Assembly (NCBI RefSeq): GCF_014876775.1
Contig: NZ_CP062310.1
Span: 1,093,699-1,157,698, forward strand
From: Infirmifilum lucidum
GTDB lineage: Archaea; Thermoproteota; Thermoprotei; Thermofilales; Thermofilaceae
Direction: 5' to 3'
DNA: 64,000 nt
Positions within the stretch are counted from its first letter, which is position 1, and the number at the start of each line of letters is the position of its first letter. The position numbers and the translations under genes were made by a program. Below are positions 9,587 through 27,544 of this stretch, piece by piece. Under the pieces are notes generated by a model that had not been told where the DNA came from, did no database searches, and worked only from the letters and a program-made list of their open reading frames with translations.

Positions 9587-9807
9587 GGCTTATAGGGTAG
9601 GTACAGTTCCTCTATAGTCCCGTACTCCAATATCTTGTCAACGAGATCAACATGGGAGAGAAACATTCTCCGGCAGCAGTAGCGTCTAATACCTAGCTCA
9701 TTGAGAACTTTTTCGGGGTCTTCTCCGCTCTGAACTCTAGTTGCGAACTCATGCCATTTATCACCAATTAAACTACCGCACGTGAAGCACCTGATGGGAA
9801 ATATCAT
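9583..9807 (-). CDS. rpoN: DNA-directed RNA polymerase subunit N
   Basis: Small zinc-binding polymerase subunit, homologue of Rpb10. It has the conserved FPIRCFTCG start and the unusual adjacent-cysteine motif RYCCRRM. A longer frame begins at GTG 9852, but the ATG at 9807 gives the canonical N-terminus (74 residues) and is preceded by AGGGTG as ribosome-binding site, so I use it; the TATA-like TTTAAATA (9866-9873 on this strand) then gives a leader of about 35 bases. In most archaea rpoN follows S9 on the same strand; here it is inverted and shares its stop with S9. Confidence 0.95.
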
Positions 9808-9924
9808 TCCTCTAACACCCTCTATCCATACACGCTGAGCTAGAAGTTTCACTAATTCGCCTATTTAAATGTATTTTCTTAATGCTCCCGAAAGCTAGAT
9901 ATTTAGGTACTGCTTGAGTATAGC

Positions 9925-10572
9925 GTGGCTAGGCTCGATGAGGCTTCTCTAGTAAACGAGTTACAGCTCACTAGGCCAATCGTCATTAGAACCACTCCTG
10001 GATACGAGGGAGAAATAATCCGGGCGATAACGAGAATAGCCTCCTCGCGTGGCTTAACCATGTATGTCTTCTCGAGAGGGCTCTGTCAAGGCTGTTGTGT
10101 CTCAGAAACCAGTCTTCTTCACGCCTTAAGGAGGCTCCTCAGGAAGCTTGACCCCTTCTCCCACGCACTGCTCGATAAGGATATCGAGACGCTTGGGGGT
10201 CTGATATCGAAATACCTTGTACTTTCATCAGAGCAATGGAGTGCTAGTAGAGAAAGCATACTCAATGCTCTCCTATTCTCTAGAAGGCTTACATGCGATA
10301 ACGAGAACCGGCAGCACAACGTAGAATGCCCGGAAGATGCTCTATCTGCTGCAATCCTTACTGAAGCACTGAATTACGAGCACTCAGGAAGAGGGAGTAA
10401 AGCGCTAATATTGTATAGTTGTGGCGAGGTATTCAACGAGAGGGTATTCAATAGGATTCTGAGCACTAACCTCCACGTGAAACCTGTATTCCTCGTCGCC
10501 AACAGATCCAACACTCTCGCACTGGACAAGCAAGGGCGCACCGTTATGTACACTTACGACATACCCTTCTGA
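9925..10572 (+). CDS. Uncharacterised Cys-rich protein
   Basis: I do not recognise this 215-residue protein. It appears soluble, with no signal peptide or membrane span. A cysteine cluster, GLCQGCCVSETS, lies near residues 53-63 and two further cysteines flank residues 125-135. The C-terminal part (ALILYSCGEVFNERVF, then KPVFLVANRSN) reads like an alpha/beta sheet edge. The GTG start at 9925 lies about 25 bases after a TATA-like GATATTTAG (9898-9906), so the message is probably leaderless. It is divergent from rpoN, and a small hairpin at 10593-10606 lies beyond its stop. Function unknown; the Cys cluster suggests metal or redox chemistry. Confidence 0.7.
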   Translation: MARLDEASLVNELQLTRPIVIRTTPGYEGEIIRAITRIASSRGLTMYVFSRGLCQGCCVSETSLLHALRRLLRKLDPFSHALLDKDIETLGGLISKYLVLSSEQWSASRESILNALLFSRRLTCDNENRQHNVECPEDALSAAILTEALNYEHSGRGSKALILYSCGEVFNERVFNRILSTNLHVKPVFLVANRSNTLALDKQGRTVMYTYDIPF

Positions 10573-10592
10573 GATAACTGCTGTAGACCATC

Positions 10593-10612
10593 AGAGTCAA
10601 AACTCTATTTTA
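10593..10612 (+). terminator. Possible terminator hairpin
   Basis: AGAGT-CAAA-ACTCT (10593-10606) forms a five base-pair hairpin followed by ATTTTAC, 20 bases after the stop of the Cys-rich gene. The stem is short and archaeal terminators usually need only a T run, so this is a weak call. Confidence 0.25.
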
Positions 10613-10686
10613 CAAAAAATCAAGCAAGAGGCAGTTATTAAATAAACAGCTAAAATAAGCAAAATATGAATCTAATCAGGATATGA

Positions 10687-21007: not shown

Positions 21008-21601
21008 TTATTTTTGGAGGAATGAAGGATCGTTCTCCTCGAGGAACAAATAAATGGCTCTAGCGATACTCTGTGCTATGCGCAGTGGCTCTGGGACTTT
21101 TCCATGCTTAGTAACAGCGTTGAGCAACTCTCTGAGATCCTCTTCTCCGATGCCCTCGTACCGCGCGTACACATAGCTCCTAGAGCTGCTTATGTACACA
21201 AGTCGGCGCTCGCCAAGATTAGAGTACATCTTTAGGCGCCCCTCATCGCCTGGAAAGTACTTCTCCAAGAATTTCTCGAGGCCGCTCGATTCCTCGTAGC
21301 TTAGACACACGACTGGTATGCCCAGTTCTCTGTAAAGAGTTTTTATGTCTACGATGTTAAACCAGCTTATTATACATCCGTTCAACATTACAGCGTTGAT
21401 GTCTTGCCTACCCGTGTTTCTTACGAGTTCAACTATCTTCTCTGTTGCGTCGAGTCCGCCTACAGTCAACCATGTGAGATAAACTCCGTCTACTATTCCA
21501 TCCCTCCTGTATGATACAGCTGCCAATATGGACTTCCTCAGTTTCTTGTTAAAGCATTCGGCCATTCCTAGTACGCGGAATGCAGGCTTCGTGAACTGCA
21601 A
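21008..21601 (-). CDS. DUF99 (UPF0215) family protein
   Basis: 197 residues, an archaeal family with an endonuclease V-like RNase H fold, sometimes labelled endonuclease dU; activity for this member is unproven. Recognised by FRVLGMAECF near the N-terminus, GVYLTWLTVGGLDATEKIVELV, INAVMLNGCIISWFNIVDIKTLYRELGIPVV-like core and the LRIAQSIARAIYLFLEEN end. One of the acidic residues expected in an EndoV site is visible in VGGLDA. It lies ten bases after the M24 peptidase gene and is probably cotranscribed with it and mtnA. Confidence 0.85.
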   Translation of the reverse strand: MQFTKPAFRVLGMAECFNKKLRKSILAAVSYRRDGIVDGVYLTWLTVGGLDATEKIVELVRNTGRQDINAVMLNGCIISWFNIVDIKTLYRELGIPVVCLSYEESSGLEKFLEKYFPGDEGRLKMYSNLGERRLVYISSSRSYVYARYEGIGEEDLRELLNAVTKHGKVPEPLRIAQSIARAIYLFLEENDPSFLQK

Positions 21602-22816: not shown

Positions 22817-24190
22817 ATGGGCGCAAAGATAAGGGATCGCCTGCTCGCTACTACGAGTACCTTTGTTGTATCGGTAATGTACTCTGAGCTATTTCTCAAC
22901 AACGCTAGTAGCCTAATGCTCTACATTGTCCCAGCGGTCTCTGCGTTAGTCGTACCCTCTCTTGGTGCACCGATATTCGTCCTAATATTTTTCCTAGAGC
23001 TCTACCGCTTAGAAGAACTCTTCCTACTTCTTGCTCTTTTACCATTCCTGTTATTTATACTCCTGAAGAACGTTCACAGCTGGGCATCATCTCTAGTCCT
23101 CCTAGTGCTAACACCCTTAATAGTAATCTACCCTCAGGTAACTGGAGTAGTTCTCGGCATGCTGTATTACCTGGCCTTTAAAGAAAAACCCAGAGAAGCT
23201 GTTTTTACCGGCGTAAGCCTCGTAGCTAACCTCTTCGTCATTTCCTTCTTGCTTTTAAAAGAATACGAGACAAGAATACCTCTGCTACTCCTACCCGGAG
23301 GTTTCCAAGCCACGGGAAATGAAATTAGCCGGGCTGCACTTTTCTACTCTACTTTCGCGAACAGACTTTTTAGCGATACTAAGCTACTTGCGGAGGCAAT
23401 AGTGCTAGTTTCATCGCTAGCCGCTGTATCGCTGTTCGAGGGAAAAAACATGTTTTCACTCATTGCCCCTCAAACTGTCCTCTTAAGCACTACACCATTA
23501 ATCGGGGGGCTGATGCCAAGTGACGTTGTTGGACTCGTTTTATCTGTGGGAACCAGTAGCCTATTCCATGTCGCTGAGCAGGCGTCTGTGAGTCTATATC
23601 CTCGTGTACTCGCCCTGAGAAACTTACTCAAGAAGAGAGGCCGCGAAGAAATCAGGAGTGATTACTCGGTGTTGTTCACCGACGTGGCAACAACCGCAAG
23701 GGAGCTGAAGCTACTATGCGAAACACTCCCTCCCGGCAGGAAAATCGTCATACTGGGTCTCAGCGAAGACGAGGAGAAATTATTTGTGAAGCATGTTCTT
23801 GGAGGAAAGAAGTGTGCTGCCAGTGTTGTTTTCTTCCACGAGTTAGGTCTAGAGAAACTCCTAAGCCTTCCACCCAATGAGACTATTGTCGTCTATATCC
23901 GTATACTGGACGAGAAGACAGCTCTATCCATGCTCTCAAAGCTGACGGGTTTTGATGCAGAAACAATTAGAGAACTGGTGCAACCGTACTTGGAGAAACT
24001 CAAGCGTATAAGTCGGGTTACGCTGTATAATCTCTCAAAGGAAATAGACGAGCTTATAAAACAGGGTGTAAGTGCCAGGAAAGCCTTTGACTCTGTGATG
24101 AGTAGGGTAGAGCCAGAATTAAACGAGGAATTTATACAAACTCTAGAAAAAATATATGTAACTTACGAGATTGTAGGCTTTGCAAGGTGA
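22817..24190 (+). CDS. Polytopic membrane protein with cytoplasmic C-terminal domain
   Basis: I do not recognise this 457-residue protein. Residues 10-235 are rich in Leu, Val and Phe and hold roughly seven to nine membrane spans (for example around 35-70, 66-88, 93-120, 132-150, 190-206, 213-240). Residues 255-457 are soluble and charged. The pattern PPGRKIVILGLSEDEEKLF, then ETIVVYIRILDEKTALSMLSKLTGFD recalls an AAA+ ATPase domain without a Walker A lysine, which I only suggest. Its stop overlaps the next start by four bases (GTGA). It is the first gene of a cluster leading to Roadblock and small-GTPase genes. Confidence 0.75.
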   Translation: MGAKIRDRLLATTSTFVVSVMYSELFLNNASSLMLYIVPAVSALVVPSLGAPIFVLIFFLELYRLEELFLLLALLPFLLFILLKNVHSWASSLVLLVLTPLIVIYPQVTGVVLGMLYYLAFKEKPREAVFTGVSLVANLFVISFLLLKEYETRIPLLLLPGGFQATGNEISRAALFYSTFANRLFSDTKLLAEAIVLVSSLAAVSLFEGKNMFSLIAPQTVLLSTTPLIGGLMPSDVVGLVLSVGTSSLFHVAEQASVSLYPRVLALRNLLKKRGREEIRSDYSVLFTDVATTARELKLLCETLPPGRKIVILGLSEDEEKLFVKHVLGGKKCAASVVFFHELGLEKLLSLPPNETIVVYIRILDEKTALSMLSKLTGFDAETIRELVQPYLEKLKRISRVTLYNLSKEIDELIKQGVSARKAFDSVMSRVEPELNEEFIQTLEKIYVTYEIVGFAR

Positions 24191-25374
24191 AAGCAGTGCT
24201 CCAGTCGAGTAAAATGTACCTAAAACTGGAGGAGATACCCTTCATGCACTGGGGCATCATAACACGCTATAACTTCTCACCTGACAAGCTTCACCTAGTA
24301 CCGCGTAAACGATGGGATCCTCTATCTTCTGCGCCTATAGTACTGCCTGATGCCTCTGGGCGTCTCGTGCCGATAGGTAAGTGGAAAGGGCACTTCTCGT
24401 ATATAAGTCCCATCCGGGGCTTAAGACCTGGCGAGGACAGTGATAGTAAGCCTAGAGATGTTTTCAAGGACATAATCTCCGGGAAAGACTACGCAATTTT
24501 CGTGGCGCTTGATGATAAACCCTATGACTCTGTCTTCAGTGTAGAGCCTATTGCTGTCGAGATCTCAAATACTAAGGCTGCCACGATAGTAAATAGGTTC
24601 CCCGCTATGGTGAGAGTCCTGGATCCTGAATTAGAGGGGTATCTACGCTCAAAACTAGAAGACAAGCACACTAGGATAGCGCGCGGCATAAACCTAGTGA
24701 CATTCCCAGTTGACGCGTACTACGAGACGTTCAGCGAGGCGCCACCGGATTCGTTAGCTTGTGTCTTCAAGTCGCTCATACAGGCTATTAAGTCAAGCGT
24801 AGTAGAGGCCCAGAAACACGGGCACAGACTATTACCCGTGTATGTCTTCTTTAATATTGGGAAGATGGCCGGAGGCAGCCAGCCACGCCTACACGCCCAG
24901 ACGTATATTGACTTGAACGAGGACGGGCATGGCACCTTCATGGAGAACCTCTTACAAGCCTTCGATTACTCGAAAAGCAAGTGTCACCTTTGCTCGTCTC
25001 GGCATGACGGGAGGATTGTTTACGAAAACAATACCTGGATAGCGTGGGCCACCTCTGCTCCTCGCCGTAATTTCCACGTCAGGATTGCGCCGAAGCGTCA
25101 CCTAGAGAGGATAACCGATCTCGACGAAAGCGAAATCCAGGGCCTTGTAGACACTATTATTACAGTCTCGCAGGCAATGGACAAGGTAGGCATTATTAGA
25201 GACAGATATCTACTGATTTATAGCAACCCCTTCGGGTATAACTCGTTCTTCCACCTTTTCATCGACTTTATACCTTTCGAGAGAATTGGAGGCATAGAGA
25301 TCCTAGATTCGGTACGCGTCGCTAGAGTGGCGCCAGAGGAAGCTGCGAGGATTATCCGCGGGGCTATTGGTTGA
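24187..25374 (+). CDS. GalT-like HIT-superfamily nucleotidyltransferase
   Basis: 395-residue protein with the two-domain look of galactose-1-phosphate uridylyltransferases and relatives. The signature strand N223-IGKMAGGSQP-RLHAQ keeps the nucleophile His (H236) and the transferase-type Gln (Q238), but the first His of the HPHxQ motif is Arg (R234). A CHLC pair (C266, C269) may bind metal. The second half repeats HIT elements: APRRNFHVRIAPKRHL (H297). Likely a nucleotide-sugar or ADP-sugar transferase/phosphorylase; substrate unknown. GTG start overlaps the upstream stop. Confidence 0.72.
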   Translation: MKAVLQSSKMYLKLEEIPFMHWGIITRYNFSPDKLHLVPRKRWDPLSSAPIVLPDASGRLVPIGKWKGHFSYISPIRGLRPGEDSDSKPRDVFKDIISGKDYAIFVALDDKPYDSVFSVEPIAVEISNTKAATIVNRFPAMVRVLDPELEGYLRSKLEDKHTRIARGINLVTFPVDAYYETFSEAPPDSLACVFKSLIQAIKSSVVEAQKHGHRLLPVYVFFNIGKMAGGSQPRLHAQTYIDLNEDGHGTFMENLLQAFDYSKSKCHLCSSRHDGRIVYENNTWIAWATSAPRRNFHVRIAPKRHLERITDLDESEIQGLVDTIITVSQAMDKVGIIRDRYLLIYSNPFGYNSFFHLFIDFIPFERIGGIEILDSVRVARVAPEEAARIIRGAIG

Positions 25375-25411
25375 CAAAAAATAATTATCAGGCTCACTGC
25401 TCTTTTATTTA

Positions 25412-26179
25412 GTGTCGCTCATGTTAAGTCACCTACAGGCCCTGTTGTCGCCAGCCCAGGTCATGGGGGATTATCTGGCTCCACTGATTTATCTCTCCTT
25501 TCTCTCACTCGGCATCTCTATAGGCGTCCTCATATCCTTCATATACATTATCCGCATGATACAACACGGCGGTACACCTCGAGAGGTTCTAGAGAAGCTT
25601 AGCCACTTGGAGGAAAAAGCCGAGAAACTAGAGGACTCGCAAGGAGGTCTATCCTCGAGTGTAGCCGAGCTTAGTGCTTCAGTGAAGAGTTTACAGGAGA
25701 GCTTGATGCGTGTAGATTCCCGTTTAACAAGCCTTGAAAGCAGAGTAACGGTACTCGAGAGGAGAGGGGTCAGAGAGTTGAGAGAGACAGCACGTACAGT
25801 TTCTTACCCCAGGCCCTCCCAACTTGCGAAAGTGGAGGCAGCAACCATAAAGGATCTGAATGAGATTGTACTCCACTTCCCCGAGGTGAGGTATGCTGGA
25901 ATAATCACGTCGCAGGGGTATGTTGTAAAGAGCTATGGCCAACCTAGCGAGGAACCCCCTAAGATGCTTGAAGTGTTAAGGATTTCTGGTACGCCGAGGG
26001 TCTCACTTATAAGGGGGGATAGGAGGCTTGAAGTGTTCTATCTTGGGGACGTGAAAGACCTCTCTATCTACGGCATACTGGAAATCGAAGACAGTGTAAG
26101 CATTGATGAGGCTAAGCTTGAGGCGATAAAAGAAACGATAAATAGATATTTTAGGAGTGTTGTTTCAAAGTCACAATAA
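25412..26179 (+). CDS. Membrane-anchored coiled-coil protein with possible Roadblock-like C-terminus
   Basis: 255 residues in three parts. Residues 20-47 form one membrane span (LAPLIYLSFLSLGISIGVL...). Residues 57-120 form a heptad-rich coiled coil (HLEEKAEKLED, VAELSASVKSLQESL, LTSLESRVTVLERR). Residues 145-255 form an alpha/beta domain, beginning LNEIVLHFPEVRYAGIITSQGYVVKSYG, whose pattern of helix, strand, turn and strand looks like a divergent Roadblock/LC7 domain. It has its own TATA-like CTTTTATTTAG upstream. It is followed after 15 bases by a clear Roadblock gene, so it may be the membrane receptor or scaffold of that system. Confidence 0.75.
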   Translation: MSLMLSHLQALLSPAQVMGDYLAPLIYLSFLSLGISIGVLISFIYIIRMIQHGGTPREVLEKLSHLEEKAEKLEDSQGGLSSSVAELSASVKSLQESLMRVDSRLTSLESRVTVLERRGVRELRETARTVSYPRPSQLAKVEAATIKDLNEIVLHFPEVRYAGIITSQGYVVKSYGQPSEEPPKMLEVLRISGTPRVSLIRGDRRLEVFYLGDVKDLSIYGILEIEDSVSIDEAKLEAIKETINRYFRSVVSKSQ

Positions 26180-26194
26180 AATATTGGTGAACCT

Positions 26195-26611
26195 ATGAGT
26201 CTGGACAAGGAGACCGAAATTCGAGGTGTCCTTGGGAAAATAATCAAGGAGACGCACGATGCAATCATGTCGATAGTGTTTGCGTGGCGGGACGGAATAC
26301 CCGTGTCTTTCATAGCCCCCGACCAGTCTCAAGCCGAGTTCCTGGCAGTGGCCTCCGCCGCGGCGCTGGGATCCCTCGACGCTCTCGGGGACATTTTCGG
26401 TAGTCGCGTTAAGCGCGTCGACGTGGAGTTTGAGAATGGAGGCCATGTCATCATATCATCCGTTAACGGCTCCTTCATTGCGCTCTCGACAACGCCACGC
26501 CCCAACCTAGGACTGATACATCTCGTCCTGAGGAAGTACGAGGACGACGTCGTAAGGATGGCCGGTGTCGGCTATGTCGACGCGAAGAAACTACCTAAAA
26601 ATACTCGTTAG
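26195..26611 (+). CDS. Roadblock/LC7 domain protein
   Basis: 138 residues. Roadblock/LC7 proteins are small dimeric regulators of Ras/Arf/MglA-type GTPases. The fold is visible as ETHDAIMSIVFAWRDGIPVSFIAP, then AVASAAALGSLDALGDIFG, then VDVEFENGGHVIISSVNGSFIALSTT and PNLGLIHLVLRK. The 3' end overlaps the GTPase gene by about 38 bases, a strong sign of coupled translation. It is probably the direct partner (MglB-like) of that GTPase. Confidence 0.88.
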   Translation: MSLDKETEIRGVLGKIIKETHDAIMSIVFAWRDGIPVSFIAPDQSQAEFLAVASAAALGSLDALGDIFGSRVKRVDVEFENGGHVIISSVNGSFIALSTTPRPNLGLIHLVLRKYEDDVVRMAGVGYVDAKKLPKNTR

Positions 26612-27125
26612 CGGTCCCTATGCCAGTGGGAAGACAACTTTTGTAAAAACCGTTGCAACTAGCAGTTTATTGACGACGGAAGTTCCTGTATCTACGCTAT
26701 ATGAGTCACAAGTAAAACAGTACACGACTATAGCCTTCGACTATGGCAAGACAAACGTAGATGGTGTAGATGTGTACCTTTTTGGTACACCTGGCCAGAC
26801 GCGTTTACAGTTCATGTGGAGGGTTCTCTCGGCGGGCATGCATGGTTACATATTCATCGTAGATGGTACGTCTATGCTCCACGTATTGCGGTCACGTGCA
26901 GTTTACGAGTATATGAAGAGTCTAGGAGACTACCCGCATGTCGTGGCCGTGAGCAAGCAAGACCTCCCAAATAGTGTAAAGCCCAGCATCGTGGCCCAGC
27001 TCTTCGGGATTAGTCCCGGGAGCGTCATGCCGCTGGTTACACATGATAGGTCATCTGCCCTGACGGTGTTAAAACGTATAGTAGAAATCGTGAGAGAATC
27101 CACGGATCAACCTTTTTTTAAATGA
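26574..27125 (+). CDS. MglA/Arf-like small GTPase
   Basis: 183-residue Ras-superfamily GTPase. G1 is GPYASGKTT (residues 14-22); a switch I Thr is in QYTTIAFDYG; G3 is FGTPGQ (residues 70-75), with Gly in place of the usual Asp, as in MglA and conservon CvnD-type GTPases, followed by LQFMW; G4 is SKQD (127-130) instead of NKxD. No lipid-anchor motif is visible. ATG 26574 is preceded by GGTG at six bases; GTG 26565 is less likely. It lies between two Roadblock genes, which are expected to act as its GAP or GEF-like partners. Confidence 0.9.
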   Translation: MSTRRNYLKILVSGPYASGKTTFVKTVATSSLLTTEVPVSTLYESQVKQYTTIAFDYGKTNVDGVDVYLFGTPGQTRLQFMWRVLSAGMHGYIFIVDGTSMLHVLRSRAVYEYMKSLGDYPHVVAVSKQDLPNSVKPSIVAQLFGISPGSVMPLVTHDRSSALTVLKRIVEIVRESTDQPFFK

Positions 27126-27169
27126 AAAGAATATATCCTTGTTAAAGCTAGGAAATCATCGTGGTTTGA

Positions 27170-27544
27170 ATGAGCCTAAACCTCGAAGCATTGAGGAGAC
27201 TTATAGAGCCGGTTACAAAAGTCGCAGGATTCGAAGGGTTCGTTGTTGCCACGAGCGATGGCCTACCTCTCTTAAGTAGCCTGTCTGACAAGGATTTAGA
27301 GGAGAAGGTCGCTGCCTTGACGGCAGTTTTGAGTGAAGTGGGTAACAGAGCCAGTACAGAGTTGGGGAAGGGTGAGGCAGACTGGATCGCTGTTTATGCT
27401 CCTGACGGCTCCGGTATAATATACGTTAAACTCGGTGAAGTAGGCTACATGGCAGTTCTATTCAGTAGAGACACGCGACTGGGAGTACTTCTTTATACGC
27501 TTAAGGAAATAAAGAAGAAGATTTTGGAAGCGAGAATATCTTAG
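27170..27544 (+). CDS. Roadblock/LC7 domain protein
   Basis: 124 residues, second Roadblock protein of the cluster and the more canonical one: LIEPVTKVAGFEGFVVATSDGLPLLSS, AALTAVLSEVGNRASTELGKGE, WIAVYAPDGSGIIYVKLGEVGYMAVLF, then a C-terminal amphipathic helix LLYTLKEIKKKILEA. It has a TATA-like GAATATATC 40 bases upstream and so may also be made separately from the GTPase. Its TAG stop is interleaved with the TAA stop of the convergent aminotransferase (TTAG). Confidence 0.88.
   Translation: MSLNLEALRRLIEPVTKVAGFEGFVVATSDGLPLLSSLSDKDLEEKVAALTAVLSEVGNRASTELGKGEADWIAVYAPDGSGIIYVKLGEVGYMAVLFSRDTRLGVLLYTLKEIKKKILEARIS

Follow-up and report, generated by a model that had tools for sequence, protein, structure and literature searches.

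MglA-family GTPases carry a G3 motif without aspartate and with a glutamine (TVPGQ or GTPGQ). Groups 2-5 of the family are marked by GTPGQ and by a threonine in G2, and an Asp-Gly pair is the single conserved feature of their MglB partners (PMC4316618). SofG of Myxococcus xanthus and the MglA protein of B. bacteriovorus are members of the family acting in pilus control (PMC4316618). Roadblock proteins (arCOG02603) are in turn known at archaeal type IV pilus loci (PMC4858521). The two facts were known separately, and no report of MglA-type GTPases encoded at the pilus loci of archaea was found in the open-access collection searched, subscription papers not being covered. A cluster of six genes, encoding an MglA-type GTPase and Roadblock proteins, is located at positions 22817-27544 of a 64,000-nt stretch (hereafter the window) from the heat-loving archaeon Infirmifilum lucidum, whose genome is a single contig of 1.63 Mb. 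We are highly confident that the cluster encodes a GTPase-Roadblock switch. With intermediate confidence, we read it as a membrane-tethered MglA-type switch, the ancestral and probably present regulator of type IV pili, the strongest lead and one missed by the initial annotation. New is also the finding that the membrane protein of the cluster arose by decay from a Cdc48-type AAA+ ATPase with two rings and a membrane anchor, a form still found intact beside the GalT-like gene in other families. The features of the cluster are listed below, with the evidence on which each is based.

22817-24190, plus strand: polytopic membrane protein, 457 residues (open reading frame, ORF; hydropathy; orthologue at the same position in 10 of 10 close-relative clusters)
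About residues 1-270 of the 457-residue protein, plus strand: N-terminal membrane region (hydropathy)
23729-24187, plus strand: degenerate (pseudo-)AAA+ domain of the 457-residue protein, without Walker A but with the lid and the C-terminal helices preserved (hhalign; profile matches; weak PDB matches)
24187-25374, plus strand: GalT/HIT-superfamily nucleotidyltransferase-like enzyme, 395 residues (Pfam HIT; PDB GalT)
25412-26179, plus strand: one-span coiled-coil protein, 255 residues, span at residues 29-47, coiled coil at about 57-125 (ORF; hydropathy; Pfam coiled-coil matches)
25817-26176, plus strand: third Roadblock-like domain, at the C terminus of the coiled-coil protein (hhalign; AlphaFold and Foldseek)
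26195-26611, plus strand: Roadblock protein 1, 138 residues, RDG motif (Pfam, weak; hhalign)
26565-27125, plus strand, start probably at ATG 26574: MglA-type small GTPase (ORF; Pfam; PDB profile; alignment; tree)
27170-27544, plus strand: Roadblock protein 2, 124 residues, SDG motif (Pfam Robl_LC7; PDB Roadblock proteins)

The ORF list and the DNA agree with the initial annotation on the coordinates and orientation of the six consecutive genes, as well as on their two overlaps. Membrane protein and GalT-like genes overlap by 4 bp (GTGA). The GTPase may start at GTG 26565 or at ATG 26574; orthologues begin at the ATG site, and with this start the gene overlaps that of the 138-residue protein by 38 bp. 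The remaining intergenic gaps measure 37, 15 and 44 bp. The first of these (window 25375-25411, aaaaaataattat) is AT-rich, lies upstream of the coiled-coil gene, and is possibly the own promoter of a cassette made of the coiled-coil, Roadblock and GTPase genes.

All sampled genomes of the genus have the cluster, and it is found in nearby genera too; these genes are indeed neighbours in related genomes. Since the gene order membrane protein, (GalT), coiled-coil, Roadblock 1, GTPase is found again in ten relatives, the arrangement is not due to chance. Membrane protein, coiled-coil, Roadblock 1 and GTPase genes are together in all ten, with a membrane protein identity of only 15-53%, and the overlap of the Roadblock 1 and GTPase genes is conserved. 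The GalT gene is not in the cluster of four of the ten relatives (G001, G002, G003, G006), nor was a close copy found elsewhere in their genomes. Roadblock 2 follows the GTPase in the genus of the host, and is relocated beyond PepQ in G008 and G013; the stretches inspected for G002, G007 and G011 did not contain it, and those of G002 and G007 terminate at contig ends. The outer flank, comprising PepQ, endonuclease dU and MtnA, is mostly shared among relatives; in the window, the endonuclease dU family protein is encoded at 21008-21601 (Pfam Endo_dU 2e-55). The GTPase profile finds a strong match in 14 of the 14 good-quality genomes of the order.

The GTPase features a G1 motif GPYASGKT, an aspartate-less G3 motif FGTPGQ at about 26781-26798, and a G4 motif SKQD, which is NKQD in most relatives aligned. 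In an alignment of 21 archaeal rows, residues G17, G22, K23 and T24 of the P-loop GxxxxGK[ST] are invariant, as are TT in G2 and PG in G3, and G3 is FGTPGQ or a close variant lacking Asp. The best PDB relative is Thermus thermophilus MglA (profile, E 1e-15), with Arf-like proteins close behind. An MglB/Roadblock gene within four genes counts as a mark of the MglA family; here, Roadblock genes flank the GTPase gene on both sides. In the GTPase tree, archaeal rows are separate from bacterial rows, and one clade, with support 100/99, holds the eight rows of the cluster described here; the deeper branchings have weak support and the rooting is uncertain in this tree, which contains no Rup or eukaryotic outgroup.

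The 124-residue protein matches Pfam Robl_LC7 above the cut-off (3.5e-9) and PDB Roadblock proteins as well. The 138-residue protein matches the same Pfam model only at 0.007, below the cut-off, and aligns to the 124-residue Roadblock family by hhalign (98%, E 1.4e-13). The C-terminal 120 residues of the coiled-coil protein are related to the same family at 82% in an alignment of 12 rows, and at 95% (E 2.5e-8) in a wider alignment. An AlphaFold model of this domain, obtained from a single sequence, is weak (predicted local distance difference test score, pLDDT, 64), and the ten best PDB folds found with it by Foldseek are all MglB (probability 1.00, template modelling score 0.5-0.65, E 2e-3 to 1e-2); the model agrees with the sequence evidence for a Roadblock fold. 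A PDB search with the C-terminal profile of the protein returned no significant match. Two proposals of the initial annotation, a GTPase-Roadblock module and a one-span anchor with a Roadblock C terminus, are hence upheld. Because Pfam Robl_LC7 and the GTPase profile each match once in the host genome, the former in the 124-residue protein, the cluster looks like the only MglA/Roadblock system of this organism. The Asp-Gly pair is kept in 47 of the 56 rows of the 124-residue Roadblock family, and is replaced by EG in 8. The corresponding site reads RDG in the 138-residue protein, SDG in the 124-residue protein and SQG in the domain of the coiled-coil protein, and the last variant suggests a role in docking rather than in catalysis.

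The link to pili comes from relatives. The coiled-coil/Roadblock, Roadblock and GTPase genes form a three-gene cassette conserved across the phylum. Profiles built from the cluster genes were used to locate 20 further loci from other classes, which were inspected. In the distant family f23 the three genes are together in 9 of 9 loci, and TadA and/or TadC are encoded within 8 kb of the cassette in 8 of these, versus 0.33 expected if a genome of 1.7 Mb is assumed to carry about five loci for pilus-type ATPases, the rate observed. In one locus of this survey (L156), a typical archaeal pilin follows TadC. Within the order of the host, the cassette is found at pilus genes in f2 (L041), f3 (L042) and two f1/g7 loci. 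TadC, pilin-like genes, coiled-coil, Roadblock and GTPase genes follow each other on a single strand in L042. Another f2 locus (L044) starts at a contig end, and the last genes on a different contig of the same genome (L071) are TadC, TadA and a Roadblock gene of which the beginning is present. In a sample of 398 genomes of the phylum, the GTPase is present in 36 of the 45 genomes with a strong match to the TadC type found at these loci (E < 1e-200) versus 26 of the 353 that lack such a match (Fisher 5e-26, without correction for relatedness); the host genome carries both genes. The cluster's switch probably controls type IV pili, because the same switch genes sit in the pilus gene clusters of several related lineages.

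Other arrangements were noticed in the survey. L157, L159 and L165 host, next to a full cassette, a second coiled-coil/Roadblock pair, lacking the GTPase, between TadA and TadC. In L062 a Ras/Rup-type GTPase (9773-10297, Pfam Ras 2.6e-42) is separated by 16 bp from a Roadblock gene (10313-10684) and adjoins TadC, and the same arrangement is found in L060/L073 and L064; Rup GTPases are held not to be coupled to MglB (PMC4316618). Extra Roadblock-like proteins with weak Ragulator/EGO matches (SLM4 0.005; MAPKK1_Int 0.025) are encoded in L041 (7235-7684) and L048 (8096-8593).

Several observations weigh against pilus control. No TadA, TadC or pilin gene was found within about 7 kb of the cluster in the window or in the genus, and TadA and TadC of the host map at about 841-845 kb, some 270 kb away from the cluster at 1,116-1,121 kb. 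Vulcanisaeta/Caldivirga-type genomes (f13) have the GTPase and lack this TadC type, nine genomes have this TadC type and lack the GTPase, and f40 has an isolated cassette, either whole or reduced to Roadblock and GTPase. The counts of co-occurrence, moreover, take no account of relatedness. With the pilus genes unlinked here, we give about an even chance, judging from relatives, to the switch controlling type IV pili in this genus.

A mechanism may be drawn from the protein families and from gene context. The GTPase would alternate between GTP and GDP forms. The two soluble Roadblock proteins (138 and 124 residues), carrying the Asp-Gly pair as MglB partners of this GTPase type do, would dimerise and serve as predicted regulators of the GTPase, by activation of hydrolysis or by exchange. 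The coiled-coil protein with its one span would display the third Roadblock domain at the inner face of the membrane, holding the switch there. The output, modelled on MglA and SofG acting on bacterial pili, would be to assemble or to position a type IV pilus featuring a fused TadC of about 600 residues and a TadA ATPase of about 600-690 residues. In the lineage of the host, the cassette would have joined, away from the pilus locus, an older pair made of a Cdc48-derived membrane protein and a GalT/HIT enzyme. A role of the former as scaffold or effector of the switch is a tentative suggestion.

The membrane protein has at least five predicted spans. Its profile matches also Cdc48-type ATPases of about 740 residues in many genomes of the order, and a PDB search returned weak matches to VCP/VAT. 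Its pseudo-AAA+ domain aligns by hhalign (96-98%) with the D2 domains of L180-L183, which keep Walker A, the lid and the C-terminal helices being included in the alignment. Homologues in f2 (L187-L189) and f4 (L183) are 837-880 residues long and combine membrane helices with two AAA+ domains (Pfam AAA 1e-86). In those of f2, Walker A and B are present in both rings, along with YVPPPD-type motifs. The f2 and f4 genes directly precede the GalT gene, and the GTPase gene is not there. Single AAA+ domains with Walker A, encoded apart from the GTPase, are found in G009, G015 and G016; in G011 the membrane protein lies within a joint GTPase cluster and still has Walker A. Overall, Walker A is present in G009, G011, G015, G016 and G019, and lost in the window protein, G001-G008 and G013; it is gone in the genus of the host and in g2/g3. 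An AlphaFold model of the pseudo-AAA+ domain, made from one sequence, reached pLDDT 60, had no significant Foldseek match and was not used as evidence.

To judge from these matches, the 457-residue protein is a pseudo-AAA+ membrane protein decayed from a membrane-anchored two-ring Cdc48-type ATPase. The fuller form in L187-L189 resembles Cdc48/VAT (VCP-like) ATPases for the two AAA+ domains, the Walker A/B and the YVPPPD-type motifs; unlike these, the family is anchored by an N-terminal helix bundle, and the window protein is devoid of a P-loop. Profile matches and hhalign alignments led us to discard the notion of a transporter, as well as that of a sensor, which the protein does not recognisably resemble. 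Because of the distribution of AAA+ and GalT genes over f2, f4, G009, G011, G015, G016 and the genus of the host, membrane protein and GalT are taken as an older pair, which the switch joined later, the P-loop being lost within the lineage with the joint cluster. The membrane-anchored double Cdc48-type proteins encoded next to the GalT-like gene (L187 4076-6718, L188 2575-5199, L189 642-3266, L183 5693-8206) are possible archaeal membrane unfoldases.

The 395-residue enzyme matches Pfam HIT (1.3e-7) and PDB GalT (7.7e-9), and its family conserves the catalytic-type histidine region (S/T)QPRLH(A/S)Q. It scores 25.9 bits with the NCBIfam GalT equivalog, the cut-off of which is 448. It is a member of the GalT/HIT superfamily, and not a GalT equivalog. 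By its distribution, the gene goes with that of the AAA+ membrane protein rather than with that of the GTPase. We do not count GalT among the core components of the switch, because it is missing from the clusters of four relatives and is paired with the AAA+ protein where the GTPase is not found.

The decay of the membrane protein raises an alternative to pilus control. The switch might have been re-tasked to gate or scaffold the membrane pseudo-AAA+ protein in a membrane process, for example protein quality control or envelope or glycan biogenesis, the pilus link being mere history. The sharing of the cluster with the membrane protein in 10 of 10 close relatives, though pilus genes lie elsewhere, and the confinement of P-loop loss to lineages having the joint cluster agree with this. 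However, the same TadC pilus type is kept in 6 of the 7 sampled genomes of the genus, the seventh being 81% complete, and joining alone is not the cause of P-loop loss, since the joint cluster of G011 retains the P-loop. We regard re-tasking as rather unlikely. Still less likely is a composite scheme, in which a membrane-anchored Cdc48-type ATPase lost one ring, and then the P-loop, where the MglA-Roadblock switch had joined, so that the GTPase would now provide nucleotide-driven control of a membrane pseudo-ATPase, and possibly still steer type IV pili.

Alternatively, the six genes could be a loose run staying together by chance, with GTPase and Roadblocks as the sole functional unit. Loss of GalT from some clusters, relocation of Roadblock 2 and the occurrence of membrane protein and GalT in GTPase-free loci of f2 and f4 would fit such a run. 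The linkage of the other four genes in all ten relatives, despite the divergence of the membrane protein, and the conserved Roadblock 1/GTPase overlap argue against it and make it improbable. The initial view was that of a conservon-like module. An archaeal conservon homologous to Streptomyces CvnA-D, in which a sensor in the membrane would signal to a Roadblock and its GTPase, is hardly credible: membrane protein, Roadblock and GTPase genes are adjacent, GTPGQ is common to MglA group 2 (PMC4316618) and the CvnB5 structure emerged as a relative of the 124-residue Roadblock in the PDB profile search, but a histidine kinase domain is absent from all six proteins (Pfam, NCBIfam), there is neither a Pfam match for CvnC nor a protein left over as candidate, the Streptomyces, Nocardiopsis and Actinomadura GTPases, taken as CvnD type without gene-by-gene check, form a separate distant clade nested among bacterial rows (support 100/99), and the ancestor of the membrane protein is an AAA+ ATPase of Cdc48 type. 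Membership is refuted, and a loose analogy of plan remains, as conservons too are single operons with a Roadblock and a GTPGQ GTPase.

The membrane-tethered, pilus-controlling MglA-type switch that we favour can be set beside other described systems. It shares with MglA/MglB of M. xanthus and T. thermophilus the Asp-less G3 with Gln, the adjacent Roadblock genes and the type IV pilus link. It differs for the group 2-5 type switch (GTPGQ, Thr replacing the intrinsic Arg), for belonging to an archaeal clade, and for three Roadblock domains, one of which is membrane-anchored. SofG and B. bacteriovorus MglA are likewise MglA-family GTPases with type IV pili as output, an output inferred in our case; those are orphans lacking a coupled MglB, whereas here Roadblock neighbours are fixed. 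The archaeal pilus-locus Roadblock proteins of PMC4858521 are similarly encoded at pilus genes, but the text of that paper has no MglA-type GTPase, coiled-coil Roadblock anchor or three-gene cassette. In bacteria, a genome scan with profiles revealed that GTPase relatives of several Actinomycetota adjoin a Roadblock gene and PilB/PilT-type ATPases. Such pilus-type loci are L079, L084, L086, L087, L091, L095-L097 and L099; a Pfam check of L079 gave T2SSE 2e-143, 6e-144 and 1e-47, and Robl_LC7 3.5e-18.

How archaeal pili are placed and switched is poorly known. The conserved MglA-Roadblock cassette adjoins pilus genes in several lineages of Thermoproteota, and pilus-type genes in bacteria. This pattern suggests that both domains have in common a Ras-like way of controlling type IV pili, and the cassette is a small, testable set of genes. 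Of separate interest are the membrane-anchored double-ring Cdc48-type ATPases, which appear to decay stepwise to a pseudo-ATPase.

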